DNA of 64,000 nt from Xanthostigma xanthostigma (Eukaryota > Arthropoda > Insecta > Raphidioptera > Raphidiidae). Positions 2,612 through 60,010 of this stretch are shown here, piece after piece; positions within the stretch are counted from its first letter, which is position 1, and every line of letters starts with the position of its first letter. The notes below the pieces were generated by a model. The model worked only from the letters and a program-made list of their open reading frames with translations. It was not told the origin of the DNA and made no database searches. The stretch lies in contig OY754473.1 of the NCBI GenBank assembly GCA_963575645.1, positions 2,728,001 to 2,792,000 on the forward strand, written 5' to 3'. The translations under genes and the position numbers were made by a program.

Positions 2612-3245
2612 TTTTACCATTCCAACCCACAAGTGGGGAATGGTACTAGTTTAGGTCAAAAATCACTTTTCAAAAATTTTACAATATCTTTCCGTTTTGA
2701 GGTCCCCCGAATCCAAAAAACTTATTTTTGAAAAAACTCTGTGAACAAGATACAGGTCAAACGGATGATCAGAATGAAACCTTTTTTTGGAGGATGTTTG
2801 GTGTGCAAATATGAAGAGCTCTATTGTTTTTGGGGAAAATCGGCGCATGCGCAGAAGAGATATATGCTAAAACGGTATTTTTTATATAATAATGGTATAC
2901 TTTTCACAACGGCTTATTATTCTATTTATTTTTTCAAGAAAGTTTTGTTAAAAAAATTTTTTTCTAAACTTTATAGTTTCAGAAATATTTTGAAAATAAA
3001 ATAAATCATCCGCTCTTTTGTTTTATGGATCTGTCAGAAATAAACTAGTTAGGCATGCTTTGATTAATTTTTACATGACGTGGAACATACTAGCCATGGC
3101 AACAATAGCAAATATCATATTGAATACTAGCCATTACCCGCGTCACCGCACGCGATATCAGAAATTTTATTTTCTTTATTATAATCCAATGTCAACATTT
3201 ATGAAGTTGGAATGGTCCCGTCGCCCAATTGGCTGGAATTTTTTT
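2612..3245 (+). repeat. ACCATTCC-family repeat, copy 2
   Basis: Nearly full copy: TTTTACCATTCC hairpin start, the internal GGTCAAACGGATGA and GGCGCATGCGCAGAAG blocks, and the GGCTGGAATTTTTT end. Diverged from the other copies by point changes and small gaps. The short frames inside have no recognisable product. The preceding 2445-2611 holds about 100 bases that recur inverted at 34.34-34.44 kb. Confidence 0.8.
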
Positions 3246-3626
3246 CTCAGTTTCCGAAGCTTGTAATCTCCGTCGGCGACTGAGATTTGCCGTTAAGAGC
3301 ACGGCTTCAAAAAATATCTCTTTCTATCAAAAATATCCCTAAGACTAGAGAAAAAACTCATAAGGTGGTATCACTGACCAAAAAAAAAACAATAATAGCG
3401 CGAGTGTGTGAGGTCAAACTTCATAAACGTTTCCATTGTTGAAGAGACTTAACGAGTTGAAAAGCGTATAAGAAGAAAAACTTCTGACATATTTTTTTTT
3501 ACAAATGTCGTCGAGACATGTTACGTAAAAGATGACGACGATCCGTCTGAGTATTCCCAGTTCTAAATAACACAAGGACAGTCCTTGACGGTGTACCAAG
3601 CGACTGCGATAGCATGATATTATATA
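3246..3626. other. Unassigned stretch
   Basis: No gene, known repeat or structured element recognised. A minus-strand frame of 100 codons extends from 3716 into this region but has no domain-like content and is probably chance. Confidence 0.3.
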
Positions 3627-8773: not shown

Positions 8774-9460
8774 AGAGCTGGCTACGGAGAAAATGGGTGA
8801 CTCGGTGCAGAGCTGAAAATTTGCAGAATAATAGGAGATAGTACAAGTAAGTAGGGACAAAATTGCCAGAAGGCTAGGCGGAAGATAAAGAGCCGCCAGA
8901 AGGCGCTAATGTTGCGAAAAATCAGTGCACTTCTGGCAATTTCTATACTTATTCTGTAATTCAAAACTAGATTATATATTATATATATTATACATTAGGA
9001 TAGTTATAAGGGCATACTGAAAATCCAAACATGATATAATAATTACATTCGACAAATATTCAAAACTATTAATGACATTTTGATAGAAATAAAATTAAAT
9101 AAATTAATAAAATTACGTTGTTATAACAACGTAATTTTAAGTTTATTTCTATCAAAATGTCATTAATAATTTTTAATATTTGTCGAATGTAATTATTATA
9201 TCATGTTTGAATTTTCAGTATACCCTTATAACTATATAATGTATAATATATATAATATATAATCTAGTTTTGAATTACAGAATAAGTATAGAAATTGCCA
9301 GAAGTGCACTGATTTTTCGCAACATTAGCGCCTTCTGCCGGCTCTTTATCTTCCGCCTAGCCTTCTGGCAATTTTTTCCCTACTTACTTGTACTATCTCC
9401 TATTATTCTGCAAATTTTCAGCTCTGCATCGAGTCACCCATTTTCTCCGTAGCCAGCTCT
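8774..9460. mobile_element. 687-base foldback MITE
   Basis: The two halves are near-perfect inverted copies from AGAGCTGGCTACGG at the left to CCGTAGCCAGCTCT at the right. The centre, near 9115-9130, is itself the short inverted sequence ACGTTGTTATAACAACGT. Two mirror-image 60-codon frames arise from the symmetry and are not genes. No target duplication could be read with confidence. Confidence 0.85.
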
Positions 9461-10289: not shown

Positions 10290-10662
10290 TAGCGGCTAGC
10301 AAAATAAATAATTCTGTGAATGGAGCATATAGACAGACGGACTGACAGATGAGGCTTATAGTGCCCGTCGGCAAAAATTTTACTGACAAATACTCTCCCC
10401 AAACTTTGTATATGGCTTCATTAGGCCTAGTCTGACACCTTTTTCCTCTATGACTTTTTTTGATTTTGGGGCGTTTTCCCTCTAAATTTTCCGAAACATG
10501 TCGTTTTCACGACATGTAAAAATTTATAGGTACTGTTTGTTTTTTAATTGGATAGCTTAAAAACTTCAACCAAAACGCTAAAATAATGTTCTCTGACAAA
10601 TAACAAGAACCATTTAAAATGTCTGACACCTCGAATATGTCGACATATACGAGGTGTAAGAC
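10290..10662 (-). repeat. Dispersed repeat with palindromic end, copy 1
   Basis: Reversed copy of a family also at 21439-21760 and 61.25-62.06 kb. Shared words are GGCCTAATGAAGCCATATAC, CATGTCGTCAAAACGACAT and AAGCTATCCAATT. The outer end is a 42-base palindrome, GTCTGACACCTCGAATAT followed by its inverse (10621-10662). Class unknown. Confidence 0.65.
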
Positions 10663-10969
10663 ATTTTAAATGACGCATAGAACAATAGCGAATCGTTTAT
10701 AATGTTCGGATATTTTTGGGTGCGGCAAAAATCGACATACTAGGTAGGTACATACCTTTTGAAGCATTACAGTCATATCTAAACTTATTCGCAAATAAGA
10801 CGGATGGTCGCATGTGTGGAAGAGAATTTATCGTTTTGATATTTGCCTGCGACGAGATTTATTGCAGATGGCGTTCCGCTGATGCACGGCAATGTCTGAA
10901 TCTGAAATAAAAAGAAAAACTGTTCTCAGAAAATCAGGTTAAATCGATTCAATCAAAGTACCTACATTA
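10663..10969. other. Unassigned stretch
   Basis: No recognised element. A forward frame of 64 codons (10716-10910) has no domain features. Confidence 0.3.
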
Positions 10970-12033: not shown

Positions 12034-12920
12034 ATATATACATATTATATAAACATACTTTTCCAAGAATGGTGCCAAACTTCTTAGGAGGGCATGAAAC
12101 GTCGATAAATTTTGGTCCGACCCCTAAGTACCGCCATTTGACCGACGCCAATAGTGTAAGTGCCTTATGGCAAATACACTAAAAAAAGAAAGATGCTTTT
12201 ATTAATTGCGCAATATAAAACTTTAATTAAAGAGAAGTTTTAAATATAAAGCTTTATTAAAATCAGCGTTCTTCCTGTGTCGTTTCATCTTTAATTTAAA
12301 CTACTGCGTAGTTCCTAAACGTCAATTAATTAATTACTTTATAAGATTGTTTAGAGAACATTTTTAATAAGTATAATTATTGTTTCTTTGAGATAAAATT
12401 TTGTTCTAATTTATTAAATTAGCAAAATTTATGCATGGAATCGCGTTTCGTCTTTCAACAAATTATAATACATTACAAGGTTAGTAGATTACAGAGGTTG
12501 TCTCGTTCCGTTGGATAGAAGTGGGGGAGATGACGTCATCCGGCGGACCTGTCGCTTGAATGAGTGGCAACGGCTGTTGTTGTTAATAAACTTAAATGGC
12601 ATAGCTTACACAAAGAAAGAACCGTAGAAAAAAAAGCACGCATACGTCGTTGATATTACATACTTTTCGAGTTTAGATTGGTCTATTCTACATGAGAAGG
12701 GGTGGTCCCAATGTCAGTGACATTATGTCAAATCTCGCAGATTCACATCCCAAATTAGCATGAATTAATTGTTTTATCTTTTTTTGACGCGAAACGTCTA
12801 ACGGCGCGGTTGGCTGGTGGTAAAACCGTGCAATTGGCACGACACTTTTACGGAACGACGTTACGTTTGTGTGCGCTGATGTGGTCTTAGGTGAAGGCGA
12901 CATCTAGAAAACTTCTAAAT
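12034..12920. other. Unassigned stretch
   Basis: Apparently single-copy within the window. A minus-strand frame of 71 codons (12688-12903) is present in a GC-richer part, but no motif was recognised. Confidence 0.3.
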
Positions 12921-13557
12921 ACCATTCCAACCCACAAGTGGGGAATGGACTAGTTTAGGTCAAAAATCACTTTTCAAAAATTTTACAGTATCTTTCCGTT
13001 TTGAGGTCCCCCGAATCTAAAAAACATATTTTTGGAAAATCTGTTAGTCTGTGAACACGATACAGGTCAAACGGATGAGCGGATTGAAACCAAATTTTGG
13101 GAGGATGTTTGGTATGTAAATATGAAGAGCCCTCTTCTTTTTGGGGAAAATCGGCGCATGCGCAGAAGAGATATATGCTATAACGGTGTTTTTTATATAA
13201 CAATGATATACTTTTCATAACGGCTTATTATTTTATTTATTTTTTCAAGAAAGTTTCGTTAAAAAATGTTTTTTCAAAACTTTATAGTTTTAGAAATATT
13301 TTGAAAATAAAAAAAATCAGCCGCTCTTTTGTTTTATGGATCTGTCAGAAATAAACTAGTTCGGCATGCTTTGATTAATGTTTACATGACGTGGAACATA
13401 TTATGTAGGTAACCATAGGAACGAATAGCATCATATTGAATACTAGCAATTACCCGCGTCACCTCACATGATATCAGAAATTTTATTTTCTTTATTATAA
13501 TCAAATGTCAACATTTTTGAAGTTGGAATGGTCTCGTCGCCCAATTGGCTGGAATTT
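12921..13557 (+). repeat. ACCATTCC-family repeat, copy 3
   Basis: Nearly full forward copy, from the ACCATTCC hairpin to GGCTGGAATTTTT. It is followed without a gap by a second, partial copy. Confidence 0.8.
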
Positions 13558-13800
13558 TTATAACGGCTTATTATTCTATTTATTTTCTCAAAAAAGTTTC
13601 CTTAAAAGTTTTTTTTTCTAAACTTTATAGTTTCGGAAATATTTTGAAAATAAAAAAAAAATCAACCGCTCTTTTTTTATGGATCTGTCAGAAATAAACT
13701 AGTTCGGCATGCTTTGATTAATTTTTACATGACGTGGAACATATTATGTAGGTAACCATGGCAACGAATAGCAAATATCATATTGAATACTAGCCATTAT
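13558..13800 (+). repeat. ACCATTCC-family repeat, partial tandem copy
   Basis: Resumes in the family at ATAACGGCTTATTATTCTAT directly after the end of copy 3 and runs to ACTAGCCATTA. The head-to-tail arrangement could reflect unequal exchange or replication slippage. Confidence 0.7.
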
Positions 13801-13810
13801 TTCGATCACT

Positions 13811-14398
13811 TTTTGACGTGATAACGTCTTATAAATTGATGAATCACCAATCTTATAAATTGATGAAACACCGGCTGCATGCACGAAAAAGTGTAACGTT
13901 CCTAACGTTCCGCCTGACCCTGTGCGTGCTTTTCTCGAAAACGGCCCTAACGATTTGGATGAAATTTACTGAAAAGGGATTTTGGGGGGCAAAAAATCGA
14001 TTTAGTTAGGTCTCATCTCTCGAAAAAATCGTTTTCATACAAATTTTATCATTATAAAAATCAATTTTTTGACGTATGAAAATACTTAAATATTGTAAGT
14101 AGGTTTTGGAAATTTATATAAACAATGAAACAATTGTTTTCAAAATATTATGACAATTAATCTTTGAGACTTAAAATAAATACGAAAGAAAGAAAGTTAA
14201 AAAAAAAACAGTTATTATTATAGGTGGTGAGTAATTTTAATAAATAAAATTAACCTAAATTTGAAGCGAAAGATGCAATATCATAGATTCGAATTATTAT
14301 AATTATTATATGTAGAATTTAGGTTATGTATTACGGAATACGTTATCACGTAAACCTATCGTCCGTAAACCGACTTTACAGACAACCAATTTTTTTTA
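13811..14398 (+). mobile_element. GACGTGATAACG-family element, copy 1
   Basis: Begins TTTTGACGTGATAACG and ends CTTTACAGACAACCAATTTT. The first ~100 and last ~110 bases are shared with copies at 39.18 and 46.31 kb; the middle (about 13910-14310) is shared with the 18.8-20.9 kb Helitron family. It is therefore a mosaic. No gene inside. Confidence 0.7.
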
Positions 14399-18489: not shown

Positions 18490-18739
18490 TCTTTTCGGGA
18501 TGGTTTCTTATTCAAGGTCATGGCCGATTACCTGTCAAACTTCTATGCTCAAAATTTGCCTACCTTATCCTTAATTTCCTAATAATTCCTTCATTCGCCC
18601 ATTGCTATTAATTAAGTTCAAGTTTAAAAATTGTAGAAAATAACGGGAAGTGTGATAGAAAACAAAATAGTAATGGTGCGAATGGCGTCTGTTATGACAT
18701 AAAGTCGAGAAACGGACGTTAAACGCATTATTATTATTA
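18490..18739 (+). mobile_element. SINE, 5' truncated copy
   Basis: Matches the 3' two thirds of the 5612 SINE, from TATTCAAGGTCATGGCCGAT to the tail CGCATTATTATTATTA. The promoter boxes are absent. The tail ends exactly where the Helitron at 18740 begins. Confidence 0.8.
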
Positions 18740-19375
18740 GTACCTGGGTGACCGAGCTTTGCTCGGAAAGTTAAATAAAATACTAATATTCAAATACGTA
18801 TTTATTTTAAGTCTCACTTGGATAGTAATCCCTATATTATTAAACGAGCTAATCTTGTACCTATGTATCTATGTACCTATATACCTATGTCCCTAAATAT
18901 TTTCTCGAAAACGGCCCTAACGATTTGGATGAAATTTACTGAAAAGGGATTTTGGGGGGCAAAAAATCGTTTTAGCTAGGTCTCATCTCTCGAAAAAATC
19001 GTTTTCTTACAAATTTTATCATTATAAAAATCAATTTTTTGACGTATGAAAATACTTAAATATTGTAAGTAGGTTTTGGAATTTTATACAATGAAACAAT
19101 TGTTTTCAAAATATTATGACAGTTAATCTTTAATTACTATCCAAGTGAGACTTAATTAAAATAAATACGTATTTGAAAGAAAGTTATAAACAATTATTAT
19201 TATTGGGCTTTGACATGCTCACTCCTGACATCTGGTGGCTAATATAAAAAATAAAATGTGAATGCATTTAGTCGATCTATCATCTGTGAACAGTACTCCA
19301 TTCGTACTTTTAAATTCTTAAAAAATGAAATAAATAAAAAGTTTTGAAAATAACTGCAGTTAAAAATCAATGAAA

Positions 19376-19646
19376 GTTTGCTCTGCACATTTTAAAAGAT
19401 GATTTTATGTTTTCAAGTAAGTACTATACAACTGTAACGTTACTATTATATTATAACCTCATAGTTATAATATACAGTTTGTTTATTATTAATATTTTTA
19501 TCTACAGATACTGCTAAAAAACAGCATTTGAAAAAAAATAAATGCTGTAAGTACCTTCAGTCAATTTACCTGGGAAAAAAAACACAGCTACTGATGAGAA
19601 CCGTAGGATACAGAGGAACAAGAGAAAAGAAGAACAAAAAATTTAA
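19376..19646 (+). pseudogene. THAP-like fragment, left arm
   Basis: VCSAHF (19376-19393) has the C-x2-H spacing that closes a THAP zinc site, and DDFMFS follows in the next frame before a donor-like CAA-GTAAGT. After about 90 bases an acceptor-like CTACAG leads into a second exon. It contains PSVNLPGKK, the conserved NAVPS-type block after the THAP domain, again with a small insertion against the right arm. The frame ends at a TAA (19644-19646). Decayed, and lacking the N-terminal half of the domain. Confidence 0.55.
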
Positions 19647-19820
19647 TTTGGAAAATAAAGATTCAGTACATCAAACATCAATGAAAATTATAATAAATTG
19701 TAACTAAACCTAATTTTTTAGTGAAATAATTACTTTGATTGTCGTTATGATTATCATCATAAACTTCATTATTATCTTAGTTTTCAACAATAAGACTATC
19801 ATCATTTTCTTTATTGCCTA

Positions 19821-19932
19821 ATTCATACAATAATTGAATCCTATGGTTCTGATCAGTAGCTGTGTTTTTTTCCCAGACAAATTGACTGAAGGTATAGCAT
19901 TTTCTTTCAAATCCTGGTTTTTTAGCAGTATC
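19821..19932 (-). pseudogene. THAP-like fragment, right arm
   Basis: Mirror-image counterpart of the left-arm exon. On the minus strand LKENAIPSVNLSGKK is open and better preserved than in the left arm, giving the clearest match to the block following THAP domains. The arms have therefore diverged independently since the palindrome formed. Not a functional gene. Confidence 0.55.
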
Positions 19933-20953
19933 TGTAGATAAAAAAATTAATTATAGACAATAAATTATTATATTAAAACTCTATGAGGTTATATAGTATA
20001 ATAGTAACGTTACACTTGTATACTTACTTGATAACATAAAATCATCTTTTTAAGCAAACGTTCATTGATTTTTTAAGTTCAGTTATTTTCAAAGCTTTTT
20101 ATTTATTTCATTTTATAAGAATTTAAAAGTACGAATGCGGAATGGAGTACCTACTGTTCACAGATGATAGATCGACTAAATGCAGTCACATTTTATTTTT
20201 TATGTTAGCCACCAGATGTCAGGAGTGAGCATGTCAAAGCCCAATAGGTGAGTAATTTTAATAAATAAATTTTTAACCTAAATTTGAAGCGAAAGATGCA
20301 ATATCATAGATCAAGATGACGGCGAATCAGTTTTACAAGTACCGGATTGCCATAAGGGCCGACAATCCTCTCCACAAAGGAGTCAAACTGTTTCAGCAAT
20401 ATTATCTTATTGCTCCACAAAAGGAAGCGAAGCTTCCCCAGAGAACCTACGGTTCTTATATGGAGAGCCGAAGGCTCGACTAGTGTTGATTACAACCGAG
20501 CGGGGCGCAGCCCCGCGAGGTAAGACTGTAACAAAGGTGGAGACGTAGGCTCCACAAAGGGAAGCGACAGAGAACCTACGGTTCTCAAAGTTTTGGCGAT
20601 ATCAGCATATCAGTATTTTATTTAACTTTCCGAGCAAAGCTCGGTCACCCAGGTACTTAAAGATTAACTGTCATAATATTTTGAAAACAATTGTTTCATT
20701 GTATAAAATCCCAAAACCTACTTACAATATTTAAGTATTTTCATACGTCAAAAAATTGATTTTTATAATGATAAAATTTGTAAGAAAACGATTTTTTCGA
20801 GAGATGAGACCTAGCTAAAACGATTTTTTGCCCCCCAGAATCCCTTTTCAGTAAATTTCATCCAAATCGTTACGGCCGTTTTCGTGAAAATATTTAGGGA
20901 CATAGGTACATAGATAGGTAGATACAAGATTAGCTCGTTTAATAATATAGGGA

Positions 20954-21762: not shown

Positions 21763-22349
21763 TTTTTTTGACGTGGTAACGTCTTATAAATTGATGAATC
21801 ACCAATCTTATAAATTGATAAAACACCGGCTGCATGCACGAAAAAGTGTAACGTTCCTAACGTTCCGCCTGACCCTGTGCGTGCTTTTCTCGAAAACGGC
21901 CCTAACGATTTGGATGAAATTTACTGAAAAGGGATTTTGGGGGGCAAAAAATCGTTTTAGCTAGGTCTCATCTCTCGAAAAAATCGTTTTCATACAAATT
22001 TTATCATTATAAAAATCAATTTTTTGACGTATGAAAATACTTAAATATTGTAAGTAGGTTTTGGAATTTTATATAAATAATGAAACAATTGTTTTCAAAA
22101 TATTATGACAGTTAATCTTTGAGACTTAAAATAAATACGAAAGAAAGAAAGTTAAAAAAAAACAATTATATTATAGGTGGTGAGTAATTTTAATAAATAA
22201 AATTAACCTAAATTTGAAGCAAAAGATGCAATATCATAGATTCGAATTATTATAATTATTATATAAATTTAGGTTATGTATTACGGAATACGTTATCACG
22301 TAAAACTATCGTCCATAAACCGACTTTACAGACAACCAATTTTTTTTTA
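21763..22349 (+). mobile_element. GACGTGATAACG-family element, copy 2
   Basis: Very close to copy 1 (13811-14398), including the captured Helitron-like middle section, so the mosaic form was itself amplified. Confidence 0.75.
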
Positions 22350-24823: not shown

Positions 24824-25856
24824 TAACTGAGGTCATTAGCGTGACGCTTGAGGCCTCGTCCAAAAAACCAGACACATTTTTATAGGTAGTCTCAAAATCA
24901 GGTTGTGCTTGGGGCCCTACAAGTACGCTCGTCGCTCACAAAGGTGGATGAGTTTCTAGTGCTTAAATACATGTTGATTTATAAAATTGAAAATAGCATT
25001 AACCTTTGCATTTAAAGAAATATTTAATGATGAAAATCCTTTAAAGAATCGTATTCAAAAAGATGGAACGTAATTTTCTTTTCAAAATTTAAAAGGCGAC
25101 CGATTTACATCCTTGATAAAACGTAGAGCAAAGTTGCCTTATTTCGTATATTTTAATAATTATGGATAGTGGTATATTTGGTAGACAAATTGGTCCGGCG
25201 CACAGGATAAAGTGAGGAAAACTAAATCTATCGCAGTGTGAGCTGTGGACTAAATGAGTAATAAATCGTGCAACGGTTATAGAGTATGATTTCATGTGAC
25301 CAATAGGAGCGGAGCGTCAATGAAAAATGTAACTTAAAATTTGTCCGTCCGACAAAAACTTTTGAACGGTAACTTCGATCATCATGAAATTTGGATACAA
25401 CATTCATTTCGGTGAACTAAGATGAACGTACGTACTCATGTCCCTCCCTCCCATTCGTTCTTATAAAGTGATTGAGATAAAACTTTTGTATTTTTAATCG
25501 AAGACTGAATCCGTGATAAAAAATAGGGGTCTCCATTTAACATTTCAAAGTTCTCCCCTCCCCTCAAGAAAGGTGGGCAGGAGGTGGGGTAATTTTTGCA
25601 CCAAAGTCTTTCCCCCGTGGATTGATTTGACTCTGATCCGAGATATTTTTCCCAAAAGTGCTTACTTCTCGAGATATTTGGATGTGCCAGGTTAAAAAAC
25701 TGTGGCTGAACCTCGCCTTTTAGTGCATTTATATGTACTAATAAAGATTATTATTATTATTATTATTATATAGTAAACTATTGAAAATAAGAAATTTTTA
25801 AATATTCTGACCTACACCAGCTGTTTTACTGGATAGAATTATTTAATTGCAACATT
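24824..25856. other. Largely unassigned, part Helitron-like
   Basis: About 25270-25470 is a forward fragment of the Helitron family at 26756 and 60387 (GACCAATAGGAGCGGAGCG, CGGTGAACTAAGATGAACGT). The rest is unassigned; (TTA)n simple sequence lies near 25750. Confidence 0.45.
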
Positions 25857-26497
25857 AAAAAAAATCCAGCCAATTGGACAACGGGACCATTTCAACTTCA
25901 AAAATGTTGGCATTTGATTATAATAAAAAAATAAAATTTCTGATATACTGTGAAGTGACGCGGGTAATGGCTAGTATTCAATATGATATTTGCTATTCGT
26001 TGCCATGGTTACCTACATATGTTCCGTGTCATGTAAAAATTACTCAAAGCATGCCGAACTAGTTTATTTCTGACAGATCCATAAAACAAAAGACCGGCTG
26101 ACTTTTTTTTTATTTTCAAAATATTTCCGAAACTATAAAGTTTAGAAAAAAACATTTTTAACGAAACTTTTTTGAAAAAATAAATAGAATAATAGGCCAT
26201 TATGAAAAGTATACCATTATTATATAAAAAAACACCGTTATAGCATATATCTCTACTGCGCATGCGCCGATTTTCCCCAAAAACAATAGGGCTCTTCATA
26301 TTTGCATACCAAACATCCCCCCAAAATTTGGTTTTAATCCGCTCATCCGTGTTCACAGACTAACAGACAGAGTTTTTTCAAAAATATGTTTTTTGGATTC
26401 GGGGGACCTCAAAACGGAAAGATATTGTAAAATTATTAAAAAGTGATTTTTGACCTAAACTAGTACCATTCCGCACTTGTGGGTTGGAATGGTAAAA
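25857..26497 (-). repeat. ACCATTCC-family repeat, copy 5
   Basis: Complete-looking reversed copy from AAATCCAGCCAATTGG to TTGGAATGGTAAAA, with no large insertion. It is a good reference for the family. Confidence 0.8.
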
Positions 26498-26755
26498 TTG
26501 TTCAAAAGCAAATACTGTTTCTCTGAAACTTTAATATGATCAAGAGACAACTTTCCCCTAAAGTTTTATAAAAGATATCTTGGATTACATTCTAATAATG
26601 AAATATCAGCTTTCAAATCCTTTCATAATAATGTTTCAAAGCAAATAGGTCGGGCGTAATTAAAACATTGCACGTATATAGAAAAATTACTCACGAAAGC
26701 AGGGTCGTGGTTAGAATTGCTAGCGCTCCGTCCCGCTACACGGAGGTCTTATTAA
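26498..26755. other. Unassigned stretch
   Basis: No gene or repeat recognised. Confidence 0.3.
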
Positions 26756-29930: not shown

Positions 29931-30360
29931 CAGAATAGTTCTTTCGACGGCCACGCGTCTTCAGGTCACGCAGACGTTTTTATCGATATTCGATTGTCGC
30001 GTGTAATTTATAACAAATTGAGAAAATTGAAATACGAATAAAAAAAAAAAAACGCAATTTAATGTAGGGTAACGAGACAACACTGGAGGGAAACAACAAT
30101 GCGCACATTGTTGTCTGAATCGCGTAGAAGAATGCCGACGCTTCGAGAATGTTCCAGAACTGAAGGGCGGACCAGCAACAGACATAAATAGACGGTAAAT
30201 AAATAAATTGAGAACAGTGTAAATAAATAATAGATAAGTGTGCTAGATAAATTTTTGTGATATAAATATTCCTTGTATAATATACAAGGAATATTTATAT
30301 CACAGGATACATCAAAAATAAATATTAACAATACAAACCAAAAAACACTTCTTTATAATA
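29931..30360. mobile_element. LTR fossil pieces with perfect palindrome
   Basis: Parts resemble the LTR ends at 11.44-12.03 kb and 41.18-41.62 kb (for example GATAAGTGTGCTAGATAAA). A perfect inverted repeat with 24-base arms and a 1-base centre lies at 30256-30304, where the fragment turns back on itself. Broken and old; family uncertain. Confidence 0.45.
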
Positions 30361-30497
30361 ATGAAATAAAATAAATAACGGAAAAACAACAAACGAATTC
30401 TAACAACACTATATTATAACATTTTTTTTTATTAACACTATATTATAGTGCTTAGAATTCGTTTGCTGTTTTTCCGTTATTTATTTTATTTCATTAC
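30358..30497. repeat. Inverted repeat, about 60-base arms
   Basis: AATGAAATAAAATAAATAAC on the left is mirrored near 30478-30497, with AACGAATTC and ACACTATATTATA also mirrored. The short centre is a T run. Confidence 0.75.
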
Positions 30498-31130
30498 TAG
30501 TGTGACCTGTGCGAATTATTCGCACTAAATAAGTATAATAATTATCACTTTACAAAATTATTTTTTAAATAATATGATTGCAGGTATTCAATTCGTTCCT
30601 AATTTTGCACACTGCTTATAACGTTCTTCTTTTTGTTGTATTACAATATGAAGCCCAGATGACAGATCGAAGAAATATTTTACTAAAATTGTCATATAGA
30701 GGCGCAAGTAGCAAAAGCGTTGAGCTAAGCCGTCAGATGGCATTATGCAGCATTGCTGTGACGTTGTTCAGCGTTGCTCGCTGTTTCAAAATTAAAGTCG
30801 TCAGATGGCAATATGCAGTAAGTATTGTGTCTGTTGTACCTATTACAATATGAAGGTCAGATGACAGATCGAAGTGTTGACGTTGTTTCAAAATTAAAGC
30901 CGTCAGATGGCAGACGTTGTTCAGCGTTGCTGTATTTTAATTAATTTACAAAAGAAAAGCAATAATAAATTTTTTAGTTGTCGATGTCAGTAGAGCAAGC
31001 AATTATCTGTAAAATGATATATAATTTATGTGGAGAAATTTTGAGGTTTTTTCTAAAAAGGGAGGCAAACATCTTTAACCTTAGCGTATTAATATATATG
31101 AAAAAAAAAAAAAAAAGAAAAAAATCTATC
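30498..31130. repeat. Locally duplicated unassigned stretch
   Basis: CAGATGACAGATCGAAG occurs at about 30656 and 30856, and CAAAATTAAAG-CGTCAGATGGCA at about 30786 and 30890, so a block of about 200 bases was partly duplicated. A 91-codon frame (30578-30853) crosses it with no domain. Confidence 0.45.
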
Positions 31131-31436: not shown

Positions 31437-31900
31437 GTAATAAGCGCATTGCGGCCGGTAGAGGGGCGGCTATGGAAGCTCATAAATCCAGTCTGGCGCA
31501 CGCACTCTGCTACAATAGTCACCATAAAGCCATAACTCATCGATTCGCGTTCCTATCAAAATATATTCAAGACGCGAGCGCCGCAGTGCAAGTATACACG
31601 TATAGCTCCGTTGTTATAACCACTTACCGACGCCGCCCCACCACGACGGTCACTCAATTCAAATAACCAAAGAATATAAATATAAAAATCACTGAAACGA
31701 TGTTAATGAAATTTTGTAAATGTGTCCTGCTTTGTTTATGACTCCCAGTCTATTTGTTTTTATACGGTGACCACAAAAGTCCATTAAAACTTAAATTAGC
31801 CTGAATATAAAAGCGTATCATATATGACTTTAAAATCATTCTAAAAATAGAGAAACAAAAAAATTCAACATTTTTTTCGACTCAAATTCTTAACTTATTT
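31437..31900. other. Unassigned stretch
   Basis: The first 230 bases are GC-rich; a forward frame of 94 codons (31382-31666) starts in the LTR piece and has no recognised domain. The remainder is AT-rich. Confidence 0.3.
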
Positions 31901-31979
31901 AAATAAATAAAATTGTCGACCAATTTTTTTCAGACTATGTATTGACAAAAAATAATATAAATCAATATAACAAAAGATG

Positions 31980-32010
31980 ACGTTTCGATCCGGATTTGGA
32001 TCTTCTTCAG
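31980..32010 (-). ncRNA. Hammerhead-like ribozyme core 3
   Basis: On the minus strand CTGAAGA, GATCC/GGATC stem, GAAACGTC. The GTC after GAAAC is the preferred hammerhead cleavage triplet. Confidence 0.55.
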
Positions 32011-32120
32011 AAATATCTAAATAGAAAATGATAGTTTGAATGATTCAAAAAATTAATCGTGTATTCTATTAGAAAATAAGTAGCTAATACTAATTAATTT
32101 TTATATTTTTTTAGATGTTT

Positions 32121-32151
32121 CTGAAGAAGATCCAAATTCGGATCGAAACGT
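32121..32151 (+). ncRNA. Hammerhead-like ribozyme core 4
   Basis: CTGAAGA, a GATCC/GGATC stem with one loop change, then GAAACGTC. Confidence 0.55.
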
Positions 32152-32240
32152 CATATTTTGTTATATTGATTTATATTTTTATATTATTTTTTGTCAATAT
32201 ATTATAGTCTGAAAAAAATTGGTCGACAAGTTTATTTATT

Positions 32241-32836
32241 CAAGAACTTTAGTTGGCCATGATGTGTCAAAAAATGTAATAAGGAAACTGATGTTAATTT
32301 GTTTACACTGACAGCGGAACGTCAAATTAGGGTGCCAATGGTCGTTATTTTACTTAAATCGCCATCAGCGCAACAGCCCAGAACACAACAAGCATTTCCA
32401 GATCGCCTAGTTTTGCTCATGTTTTCTTTGCAATTATAACAACTTCATAAAATTATAACTATTTTCACGTTTAATAAACATTGCTCACTGACATACGGAA
32501 AATTTGAGTTTGAAGTTTCCCCTAATGCTCACCACAAACGCTCGCATCGAAAAATTTGTAACTCCGCCTCCTGCACATAGCCCATAGGACAGCCACACAA
32601 TTTTACAAAACAAGCTGCAAATATTTGGATCAGTGAACCGTGTTTGATAAAATATATTTTATTAGACAAATTAAAAAAAAAAGTACTTGCGTGGAAAGAT
32701 GTTCAAAGGCATATGTATTGATTGATAAAAATACAGAAATATTCAATGAACTTACACTAATTTATAACCTACATTACACTCATATATCAAAAAGTGGAAT
32801 AGTCTAAATGTGTCGACTGAAAATCGTTGCTGGAAG
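32241..32836. other. Unassigned stretch
   Basis: No repeat or gene recognised; appears single-copy in the window. Confidence 0.3.
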
Positions 32837-33508: not shown

Positions 33509-33528
33509 GACAGAGAGAGAGAGAGAGG
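33509..33528. repeat. (GA)n microsatellite
   Basis: About nine GA units at the junction between the Helitron fragment and the next repeat. Confidence 0.8.
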
Positions 33529-33992
33529 ATGTTTGGTATGCAAATATGAAGAGCTCTACTGTTTTTGGGGAAACTCGACGCATGCACAAAAGAGATATAT
33601 GCTATAACGGTATTTTTTATATGATAATAATGGTATACTTTTCATAAAGGCTTATTATTCTATTTATATTTTCAAGAAAGTTTTGTTAAAAAAATGTTTT
33701 TCTAAAATTTATATTTTCGGAAATATTTTGAAAATAAAAAAAATCAGCCGCTCTTTTATTTTATGGATCTGTCAGAAATAAACTAGTTAGGCATGCTTTG
33801 ATTAATTTTTACATGACGTGGAACATATTAAGTAACCATGGCAAGGAATAGCAAATATCATATTGAATACTAACCATTACCCGCGTCACCTCACGCGATA
33901 TTAGAAATGTTATTTTCTTTATTATAATCAAATGTCAACATTTTTGAAGTTGGAATGGTCCCGTCGCCCAATTGGCTGGAATTTTTTTCATG
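33526..33992 (+). repeat. ACCATTCC-family repeat, 5' truncated copy 6
   Basis: Begins at GAGGATGTTTGGTATGCAAA and runs to the normal GGCTGGAATTTTTTT end. Confidence 0.8.
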
Positions 33993-43450: not shown

Positions 43451-43751
43451 TTTACCATTCCAACCCACAAGTACTAGATTAGGTCAAAAATCACTTTTCA
43501 TACATTTTACAATATCTTTCCGTTGTGAGGTCTCCCAAATCCAAAAAACATATTTTTGAAAAAACTCTGTGCGTCTGCTAGTCTGTGAACACGATACAGG
43601 TCAAACGGATGAGCGGATTGAAATCAACTTTTGGGAGGATGTTTGGTATGTCACCTCACGCGATATCAAAAATTTTCTTTTCTTTATTATAATCAAATGT
43701 CAACATTTTTGAAGTTGGAATAGTCCCGTCGCCCAATTGGCTGGAATTTTT
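43451..43751 (+). repeat. ACCATTCC-family repeat, copy 7, internally deleted
   Basis: Both ends are present, but the sequence jumps from GGAGGATGTTTGGTATG to TCACCTCACGCGATATC, losing about 330 bases. Confidence 0.75.
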
Positions 43752-43790
43752 ATTCCATCACGCTATATAAAGCGTAAAACAAGTCACAGG

Positions 43791-44195
43791 AAAAAATATT
43801 CCAGCCAATTGGACAACGGGACAATTCCAATTTAAAAAAAAAAACTAACATTCGAAATTGTATAATAAAAAAAAATAAAATTTGTTATGGCGTGTGGTGA
43901 AGCGGGTAACGACTAGTATTAAATATTATGATATTTGCTTTGTAATTTTTAAATGTGCTTTGAGACGTTAAATTTATACTTTGTATTTTTTTGTGCAATA
44001 AATTTATTATTATTATATTTTGTTTGCATCATTATCTACATGATATAATGCTTCACGTCATGAAAAAAAATATCCTAAGCATGTCCAATTAATTTCTTTC
44101 TGACAGAAACAGCCGTTTTTTATTTTATTTTCAAAATATTTCCGAAACTATAAAGTTTAGAAAAAAAAATTTCTACAAAAGTTTCCCATAAAAAC
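43791..44195 (-). repeat. ACCATTCC-family repeat, copy 8, truncated
   Basis: Reversed copy starting AATATTCCAGCCAATTGG and fading at TTTCCCATAAAAAC; lies tail-to-tail with copy 7. An AATAAATTTATTATTATTA stretch is inserted near 43990. Confidence 0.65.
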
Positions 44196-46966: not shown

Positions 46967-47224
46967 CCATAAAATATTTTTAACAAAAAAATTGAACCGA
47001 CTTCAAAATATGCACTAAAAAGTAAAAAATAATAATTATTGTTATTTTTGGAGTCGGTGTCACATCGGAATTCGAAAGTAGCAATTTAAATCTTACATGT
47101 CTCTAGTTTTCGGAATAGATTTCATTTTGGCTGACACTGACTCCAAAAATAACAGTAATTATTATTTTTTACTTTTTAGTGCATATTTTGAAGTCGGTTC
47201 AATTTTTTTGTTAAAAATATTTTA
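46967..47224. repeat. Foldback repeat, ~95-base arms
   Basis: TAAAATATTTTTAACAAAAA at the left is mirrored at the right, continuing through GAACCGACTTCAAAATATGC and TTTTTGGAGTCGGTGTC. The centre is about 55 bases. Confidence 0.85.
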
Positions 47225-47861
47225 TTTCTCTCTTTTTAGTGTTAGATAAAGTATTGCAATGGGTAGGCCAAGTATGCGTGCCTTTGAAATTTGAGAGTTT
47301 CCCTCGATTTCTCCGGATTCCACCACCAGATCCTGACTTGGTTCCGATGGCACCACCTTGGAAGTGCACTCTTTCGAATAAAAAAATAATTTTAAAAATC
47401 GGTCTATAATTGACGGAGAAATCGGTGAACATACATAAAAAAAAAAATATACAGTCGAACATAGAACCTCCTCCTTTTTTGAAGTCGGTTAAAAACAGCA
47501 TGGCTTCTACCTTCTGTCAAATCAGTTATCCCGATCGAAAGTTCTATCACTCTAAAAAAACACCCGATAGAAAAAGGGGCATTTTCCTAATTTGACGTCC
47601 ACAGTTTTGCCGTGAAAACACACGTGTAATCAATTAACCATAGCCGTGTTAAAAACAGATTTTTATTAACTGGCAGACCTTTTTCTGTTAGCTTGAATTT
47701 TATTTGCCAATTATGCCACATTCGTAGAAATAAAAACGCCTGTACTAAAAAGTTTTGTCATTCGAACCGTTGCGATTGGTGACCAATAAAGTATATACAG
47801 GTTGTCCAAGTTATTCCGTTATTCAATCAGGAAATTATAAAGAGAATGTTTTTTTTTCAGT
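47225..47861. other. Unassigned stretch
   Basis: TTGAAGTCGGTTAAAAA at 47477 echoes the arms of the foldback to its left. ACAGGTTGTCCAAGTTATTC at 47797 has the look of a mariner-type end. No gene recognised. Confidence 0.3.
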
Positions 47862-48036: not shown

Positions 48037-48798
48037 TAAGGGCGTAGATTTTTTTTCTGAGGGGGATTAAGCTAAATATTAATTCCCAAATCAATTTTAC
48101 AATTACCATTCCAACCCACAAGTGGGGAATGGCACTAGTTCAGGTCAAAAATCACTTTTCAAAAATTTTTCAATATCTTTCCGTTTTGAGGTCCCCCTAA
48201 TTTAAAAAACATATTTTTGGAAAACCTCTGTGCGTCTGCTCGTCTGTGAACACGATACAGGTCAAACGGAAGAGCGGATTGAAACCAAATTTTGGGAGAA
48301 TGTTTGGTATGCAAATATGAAGAGCCCTATTGTTTTTGGGGAAAACCGGCGCATGCGCAGAAGAAATATTTGCTATAACAGTGTTTTTTTTATATAATAA
48401 TGGTATACTTTTCATGACGGCTTATTATTCTATTTATTTTTTCAAGAAAGTTTCGTTAAAAATGTTTTTTCTAAACTCTATAGTTTCCGAAATATTTTGA
48501 AAATAAAAAAAAATCAGCCGCTCTTTTGTTTTATGGATCTGTCAGAAATAAACTAGTTCGGCAGGCTTTGATTAATTTTTACACGACGTGAAATATATTA
48601 TGTATGTAACCATGGCAACGAATAGCAAATATCATATATAATACTAGCCATTACATTATTATAATCAAATGTCAACATTTTTGAAGTTGAAATGGTCCCG
48701 TCGCCCAATTGGCTGTATTATTTTCAGTTTTATTTTTTATTATTATGGTCCTGGGGGGGGGGGGTAATTACCTCCTTTCCTCCCCATCTACGCCCTTC
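48037..48798. mobile_element. hAT family 4, copy with nested repeat
   Basis: TAAGGGCGTAGAT and inverted ATCTACGCCCTTC ends with the 8-base pair GCTGGGGT/GCTGGAGT (48029-48036, 48799-48806; one difference). About 610 of its 762 bases are an ACCATTCC-family copy inserted in the middle. Confidence 0.85.
48105..48715 (+). repeat. ACCATTCC-family repeat, copy 9, inside a hAT
   Basis: Starts at ACCATTCCAACCCACAAG directly after TTTTACAATT and ends at CAATTGGCTG before TATTATTTTCAG. Relatives of the hAT at 35294 and 38943 show that some hAT sequence is missing at this junction, so insertion was accompanied or followed by deletion. Confidence 0.75.
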
Positions 48799-50729: not shown

Positions 50730-50991
50730 ATTTTATTTTGATATAATATTATGACAAAGCTTAAATGTAATTAATAAACTTCGCGATAAAATATCCAAAT
50801 TAAACCTTGCCTGTAGCACTTCTGTAATCAAAAGAATAATTTCAAAATTCGTCAAATAGTTTTTCTATTTGACGAATTTTGAAATTATTCTTCCGATTAC
50901 AGAAGTGCTACAGGCTAGGTTTAATCTGGGTATTTTATCGCAAAGTTTGTTAATAAAAATTATGCTTATTCATAATATACCAAAATAAAAT
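50730..50991. repeat. Foldback repeat, ~125-base arms
   Basis: ATTTTATTTTG at the left is mirrored by CAAAATAAAAT at the right, and the arms stay matched to the centre, GTCAAATAG-TTTTT-CTATTTGAC. Confidence 0.85.
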
Positions 50992-53880: not shown

Positions 53881-54205
53881 CCATTTTTGAAGTGAAAACT
53901 TCTTTAGCGGCGTTGTACAGTTTTTTTTGTAATGGGTAAAAAATGTTAAACTCTCGTCAGGACACGTGACCTGATCGAAAATTCGTAAGACGGATGGAGA
54001 GTAGAGGTATGGGTAAAAAATGTTAAACACGCGTCAGGACACGTGACCTGATCGAAAATTCGTAAGACGGATGGAGAGTAGAGGTATGGGTAAAAAATGT
54101 TAAACACGCGTCAGGACACGTGACCTGATCGAAAATTCGTAAGACGGATGGAGAGTAGAGGTAATATTCAAGTTTTCACTTATGCCGGCACTCCCGGAGT
54201 GCAAT
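53881..54205. mobile_element. Possible MITE built around a 77-bp tandem repeat
   Basis: GAAGTGAAAACTTCTTTAGC at 53890 is loosely mirrored by AAGTTTTCACTTATGCCGGC at 54170. Between them three near-identical 77-base units lie head to tail. Confidence 0.5.
53933..54163. repeat. 77-bp tandem repeat, three units
   Basis: Units start at 53933, 54010 and 54087 with TGGGTAAAAAATGTTAAAC and contain GTCAGGACACGTGACCTGAT. Units 2 and 3 appear identical; unit 1 differs by one or two bases, so the expansion is recent. Confidence 0.95.
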
Positions 54206-58640: not shown

Positions 58641-60010
58641 GCCAACGAAAACATATTTGAAAGTGTGGCCCTGTACTGAAGCGCCGCGAAACGTTTGCCT
58701 GTTGAACAAAATTTTGAATTCAACAAAGTTTTCGAACTGCATTTTTAACATCAATTATGAATATACAAATTCAGCAAGAGAAAAGCAACTTTGAAAGTGG
58801 GCACTTGTATTAAGGGCCCCCTATAAGCTTAACACAAACTTTTCAAATTAATTATTTCAGAAGTGTAATTTCCAACAATATTTGAAATTCCGCACAACTG
58901 AAACTTTTATGAAAGTGCGGCCCTCTATAAAGGGCTCCCGTAAAAAAATTTTTTTAACACAAACTTTTCAAAGTAATTATTTCAGAAGTGTAATTTCCAA
59001 CAATATTTGAAATTCCGCACAACTGAAACTTTTTTGAAAGTGCGGCCCTCTATAAAGGGCCTGCCTGAAAAAAAAACTTTTTAAATTCGACACAAACTTT
59101 TCAAATTACTTTTTCTCATACGATTAAATTTTAACAATATAAGTTATTCCGCACAACGGAAAATTTTTTGAAAGTGCGGCCCTCTATAAAGGGCCTTCCT
59201 GAAAAAAAAACTTTTTAAACTCGACACAAACTTTCCAAATTACTTTTTTTCAGACGATTAAATTTCAACAATATAAGGTATTCCGCACAACGGAAACTTT
59301 TTTGAAAGTGCGGCCCTTTATAAAGGGCCTGTCTGAAAAAAAAAAAACTTTTAAAACTCGACACAAACTTTTCAAATTACTTTTTTTCAGACGATTAAAT
59401 TTCAACAATATAAGTTATTCCGCACAACGGAAACATTTTTGAAAGTGCGGCCCTCTATAAAGGGCCTGCCTGAAAAAAAAAACTTTTTAAACTCGACACA
59501 AACTTTTCAAATTACTTTTTTTCAGACGATTAAATTTCAACAATATAAGTTATTCCGCACAACGGAAACTTTTTTGAAAGTGCGGCCCTCTATAAAGGGC
59601 CTTCCTGAAAAAAAAACTTTTTAAACTCGACACAAACTTTTCAAATTACTTTTTTTCAGACGATTAAATTTCAACAATATAAGTTATTCCGCACAACGGA
59701 AACATTTTTGAAAGTGCGGCCCTCTATAAAGGGCCTGCCTGAAAAAAAAAAACTTTTTAAACTCGACACAAACTTTTCAAATTACTTTTTTTCAGACGAT
59801 TAAATTTCAACAATATAAATTATTCCGCACAACGGAAGCATTTTTGAAAGCGCGGCCCTCTATAAAGGACCTGCCTGAAAAAAAAACTTTTTAAACTCGA
59901 CACAAACTTTTCAAATTACTTTTTTCAGACGATTAAATTTCAACAATATAAGGTATTCCGCACAACGGAAGCAATTTTTTTGAAAGCACGGCCCTGCATC
60001 GGAGGCCCGC
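58641..60010. repeat. Tandem array, ~134-bp unit, about 11 units
   Basis: The marker CCCTCTATAAAGGG or a variant recurs at 58921, 59046, 59180, 59314, 59451, 59586, 59720, 59856 and 59992, after two diverged units from 58669. Spacing is 125 then 134-137. Each unit holds ATTCCGCACAACGGAA and a GCCC-TCTATAAA-GGGC hairpin. Outer units are the most diverged, as in arrays homogenised from the centre. Confidence 0.95.

Follow-up and report, generated by a model that had tools for sequence, protein, structure and literature searches.

A decayed palindromic element with remnants of THAP exons in both arms, probably derived from a THAP transposon, in Xanthostigma xanthostigma

The window analysed here is a stretch of 64,000 nucleotides from Xanthostigma xanthostigma (contig OY754473.1, positions 2,728,001 to 2,792,000), in which positions 19203-20244 form an imperfect palindrome of two inverted 410-bp arms with 222 bp between them. 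Aligned by region, the arms (19203-19612 and 19835-20244) are identical at 366 of 389 aligned bases with 15 gap events, and the 23 mismatches and 15 gaps across 431 alignment columns agree with the independent drift of the arms proposed in an earlier, sequence-only reading of this DNA. The kilobase palindrome of that reading is borne out as well, since the first 520 bases of the element align locally with the opening 520 of its reverse complement at a score of 561, compared with a maximum of 40 in 50 single-base shuffles. Folded as a single DNA strand, the element has a predicted energy of -344.6 kcal/mol versus -75.7 to -94.9 for five shuffles. The arms make up 820 of the 1042 bp, an architecture of the foldback type, which is not a criterion for any family. 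When the terminal T and A are left uncounted, the palindromic non-autonomous element (TGGGCTTTGAC...GTCAAAGCCCA) occupies 1040 bp at 19204-20243, with ends TGGGCTTTGACATGCTCAC. The left arm (19204-19612, plus strand) and the right arm (19835-20243, minus strand) both carry exons that read inwards, and they enclose an unpaired centre (19613-19834) through whose right part a frame of the right arm continues. In its outer part (19203-19297, plus strand) the left arm equals the right arm at 93 of 95 aligned bases, and this part is perhaps the functional terminal repeat. These outer 95 bp are closer than the remainder of the arms (3 events in 99 columns versus 35 in 332; p 0.024, a post hoc value, as the boundary was picked once the identity had been seen).

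Both arms contain remnants of the same two THAP-domain exons with a GT-AG intron between them, of 91 bases in the left arm and 96 in the right, with the signals GTAAGT and CTACAG in each; from the letters we infer the exon limits and splice sites of both arms. On the plus strand of the left arm, a frameshifted exon remnant (FKFLKNEINKKF ... KSMKVCSAHFKR ... DDFMFS, 19303-19416, its end placed at the putative splice site) is followed by the candidate intron (GTAAGT...CTACAG, 19417-19507) and by a second remnant which, according to the reading frames, contains the end of the THAP domain (KKQHLKKNK .. VPSVNLPGKK, 19508-19613). On the minus strand of the right arm, the remnant of the same first exon (RIRTFKFL .. 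KITELKKSMNVC .. KDDFMLS, 20028-20139) is missing 9 bases within CSAHF, the candidate intron (19932-20027) has the splice signals of the left arm, and the putative second exon (19726-19931) reads from LKENAIPSVNLSGKK to LGNKENDDSLIVEN, a stop codon and DNNEVYDDNHND. Beyond the palindrome, the frame of this right second exon extends into the centre, where it reads as an acidic stretch interrupted by one stop; this stretch would fit a linker behind the THAP domain. All peptides quoted in the sequence-only reading are present at the coordinates given: VCSAHF lies within KSMKVCSAHFKR (plus strand, 19364-19399), DDF within DDFMFSS in a different frame (plus strand, 19398-19418), PSVNLPGKK within the plus-strand stretch 19551-19613 and LKENAIPSVNLSGKK within the minus-strand stretch 19866-19925. 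Its statement that each arm keeps the same exon is correct for the DNA and too generous for the protein, as both arms are frameshifted and the right arm is without 9 bases inside the CSAHF codons.

The homology of these exons to the THAP domain was assessed with several profile and structure searches. The raw pieces of the left arm, each in its own frame and separated by X, reach 22.7 bits against Pfam THAP (E 1.7e-4), under the cut-off of 23.9 bits, and the raw pieces of the right arm have no Pfam match. A joined reading of both arms reaches 33.6 bits (E 6.7e-8, profile positions 19-87 of 87), a score that belongs to a repaired peptide assembled by hand from the two arms and not to a raw translation; the same peptide has an additional match to an unrelated family (E 0.036). 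In a further THAP test of five peptides, two shorter joined peptides passed the cut-off (28.5 and 27.5 bits), one raw left-arm piece had an E value of 0.061 and two raw right-arm pieces were unmatched. None of eight true shuffles matches THAP, and three of the eight draw unrelated families (best E 0.03). The top match among solved structures is THAP domain-containing protein 1 (THAP1), a weak match (E 0.028) whose alignment places CSEHF and LKENAVPTIFL opposite CSAHF and LKENAIPSVNL; the search returned six matches up to E 10, unrelated proteins among them (RanBP2, E 0.12). The joined peptide matches no NCBIfam family, and when the arm frames are inspected by eye, the first pair of zinc-site cysteines is not seen, nor is the conserved tryptophan at its expected position. 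A THAP ancestry of the exons, with the domain now partial and broken, is nevertheless well supported, and the earlier proposal of THAP-like exons in both arms of an inverted duplication is upheld, with 22.7 bits for the left arm and 33.6 for the joined reading.

The element sits within another repeat, of which the filled copy extends over 18900-20311 (plus strand; 18900-19206 and 20247-20311 in a blastn comparison of the window with itself) and of which two window copies are without the element, giving the paralogous empty sites A (13930-14288, plus strand) and B (21885-22241, plus strand). The insertion point lies in TTATTATTATAGGTG of copy A; copy B has one T fewer further left, and at the junction it equals copy A in the 7 bases that precede GGTG. 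When the overlap of the flanks is computed against copy A, the joined flanks match over 10 bases on the left and 7 of 15 on the right, so that the shared bases are at most two, AT. Copy A hence allows 0, 1 or 2 duplicated bp, and the possible 2-bp target site duplication, with no duplication as the alternative, would be AT at 19202-19203 on the left and at 20244-20245 on the right. With AT duplicated the element is TGGGC...GCCCA (19204-20243), and a reading without duplication fits equally; the place given in the sequence-only reading (19203-20244) is right, with boundaries of 19204-20243 under AT and a position inside the repeat at 18900-20311. By a hand estimate for this base composition, about one quarter of duplication-free insertions would share at least two bases, which makes AT the better reading, still unproven. 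Comparison with both empty sites shows no duplication of 7-8 bp or of TTAA at the junctions, confirming what had been noted about the absence of 8-bp and TTAA duplications. The flanking TA, previously considered as the duplication, is probably not one: it would require an additional loss of 2 bp relative to copy A, whereas AT, or no duplication at all, agrees with the empty sites and needs no further change. The insertion site is itself unstable, as the filled copy departs from both empty copies by further indels (a GGT and a 19-bp stretch).

Within the window, the end sequence of the element has two matches only at up to three mismatches, one per arm, and so there is no second copy with such ends in the window. 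The exact 20-mer of the terminal inverted repeat has no match in viral contigs, and 22 stretches of viral contigs that match the pattern of the joined THAP peptide include none encoding a relative. In literature texts, a 12-mer of the terminal repeat strings occurs in three papers, whose titles all point to unrelated subjects, and a 15-mer in none; a motif taken from a neighbouring repeat is likewise absent from literature texts and from viral contigs. A 15-mer of the terminal repeat occurs in at least 119 stretches of genome contigs, where the 80 listed are all bacterial or archaeal; an estimate attributes such matches to chance, and they were not used. Among the stop-to-stop frames of at least 130 amino acids (n = 5), none matches a Pfam family at E 0.01, and the window contains no Rfam match at gathering scores and no tRNA or tmRNA. 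No DDE, HTH or YqaJ sequence is found in this short copy.

The window also contains other repeats. A second palindrome, nearly perfect (8774-9460, 687 bp, self-match 93.7%), has different end sequences, and nine further stretches match their own reverse complement (251-676, 1544-1801, 2196-2367, 10611-10672, 30356-30499, 31899-32243, 43651-43900, 46969-47225 and 50730-50991), so that palindromic elements are common here. On either side of the palindrome with the THAP exons lie inverted pieces of other repeats (18739-18796 and 20600-20657, 93% complementary; 18990-19137 and 20653-20800, 99% complementary), the order of which suggests nested insertions and not a longer palindrome. A dispersed repeat, about 640 bp at its longest (2612-3253, 12917-13563, 25853-26498, 33525-33992, 48101-48730), is present in several copies and in both orientations, with most pairs 82-93% alike and shorter pieces elsewhere in the window. 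Two tandem arrays are also found, at 58832-59995 (period 134, 8.7 copies, 92% matches; also scored as period 406) and at 53932-54163 (period 77, 3.0 copies, 98% matches).

Taken as a whole, the element has the appearance of a defective transposon of an ordinary kind, and the reading preferred here, with a probability of about 0.93, takes it for a palindromic and now decayed derivative of a THAP transposon. A transposon encoding a THAP transposase would have given rise to an internally deleted copy that kept one end, with the terminal repeat, the 5' region and the THAP exons, and this retained end may then have been copied head to head by template switching during repair, which would yield two alike ends and a transposase exon in each arm. 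The transposase of an intact relative could recognise the outer part of the arms and move the element in trans by cut-and-paste; the binding sites for the transposase would have been retained, leaving the element movable with help and the exons as passengers. It would then have inserted into a different repeat, duplicating AT or nothing, and decayed since. THAP is reputed to be confined to the transposases of P and Kolobok. The sequence-only reading treated the domain as a mark of these two groups alone, a view that is not supported, as ISL2EU transposases carry THAP and the group has AT duplications (PMC4482050). ISL2EU, or a closely related PHIS group, would be the likeliest parent group because it combines these two features, and the odds of a placement in ISL2EU/PHIS are put at about even.

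An origin from the P superfamily, as a Galileo-like derivative whose 7-8 bp duplication has since been lost, is unlikely but deserves some weight. The P element duplication is 8 bp. P transposases carry THAP, and Galileo resembles the present element as a THAP transposon with numerous defective copies and with very long, foldback-like terminal inverted repeats of 0.5-1.2 kb (PMC3688188). P is also better represented than ISL2EU in the silkworm, for which BmTEdb has six P entries and one ISL2EU entry (PMC3722987); the single entry places ISL2EU in at least one moth. The THAP homology found here agrees with P, but it cannot separate P from ISL2EU or Kolobok. Galileo differs in its duplications of 7 bp, rarely 8 bp (PMC4168063), where comparison with empty site A leaves room for no more than 2 bp here; the arms of Galileo are not described as THAP exons in the parts of these accounts drawn upon (PMC3688188, PMC4168063). 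Tetris, a foldback element of Drosophila, was set aside for its 8-10 bp duplications (PMC4079207).

A PHIS-type element that makes no target duplication, similar to Spy and inserted between A and T, has a distinctly smaller chance of being the source. Empty site A is compatible with an insertion free of duplication, and Spy, a sister clade of ISL2EU that lacks duplications, is known from many insects and includes an element with 467-bp terminal repeats, so that insect hosts and possibly long terminal repeats are shared and an insertion without duplication would fit too (PMC11304231). However, Spy prefers AAATTT (PMC9179366, PMC11304231), compared with TTA^TAG at the one site available here, and most Spy elements are described with HTH and DDE, with THAP unmentioned in the relevant passages (PMC9179366, PMC11304231).

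The remaining alternatives fit the junctions less well. That the element is a miniature of the Tc1/mariner type, with a TA duplication and THAP-like exons by chance, is quite improbable: both ends are flanked by TA when the boundaries are drawn at TTGGGC..GCCCAA, but such a duplication predicts a filled site 2 bases longer than is seen against copy A, and no Tc1/mariner transposase with THAP was noticed among the literature matches listed. A Kolobok derivative with a mutated TTAA site is highly improbable even though Kolobok transposases usually bear THAP (PMC6004289), since Kolobok elements duplicate TTAA and have ends of the form RR..YY (PMC9587614) and here neither feature is found, with ends T..A at the AT boundary and TTAA absent from the junction of either empty site. 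A fragment of a host THAP gene, duplicated by inversion and immobile, is hardly credible, because sharp paired ends lie exactly at the edge of an insertion into a dispersed repeat, although THAP is found in host proteins too (PMC3688188).

The probable descent from a THAP transposon invites comparison above all with ISL2EU, whose transposase has DDE, HTH and THAP and whose members make AT duplications in A|AT|T, have ends that are usually GG and terminal repeats of 6-259 bp (PMC4482050). The two have in common a THAP domain in the transposase, a fit to an AT duplication and animal hosts (PMC4482050), and PHIS overall has duplications of none or 1-4 bp (PMC10045372); a survey of Helicoverpa classed AT duplications under PIF/Harbinger (PMC9033116). 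The differences are a target of T|AT|A at one site, ends of TGGG if AT is duplicated, arms of about 410 bp, and the lack in this element of the transposase core and the YqaJ gene that ISL2EU has. Kinship with ISL2EU would depend on a single insertion and an incomplete THAP domain, and because neither the A|AT|T target nor the usual GG ends are found, membership is unproven. If the preferred reading is true, the element would be a clear case of foldback origin in which the end of a deletion derivative and its transposase exon were copied head to head, and remnants of THAP flanked by duplicated AT, or by no duplication, should be compared with ISL2EU before they are called an odd P or Kolobok; both points leave current views unchanged.

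The closest parallel in plan is Mu killer of maize, in which both ends come from one side of MuDR and partial copies of the transposase gene are inverted (PMC3440606). Since transposase exons are present in both arms of the element, a transcript running through it would form a long double-stranded hairpin that matches the transposase message of the parent. That the element might in this way act in an animal as a mobile silencer of the Mu killer type, with the hairpin feeding small-RNA silencing of the parent family and the element still movable by the parent transposase, is decidedly improbable. Mu killer derives from MuDR in a plant, has 1.298 kb of mudrA per half, and its silencing is established by genetics (PMC3440606). 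Both nevertheless consist of one transposon end duplicated in inverted orientation, with the beginning of the transposase gene in either copy, and the inverted duplication of transposase exons, seen in the sequence-only reading as unusual, therefore has a counterpart in Mu killer (PMC3440606).
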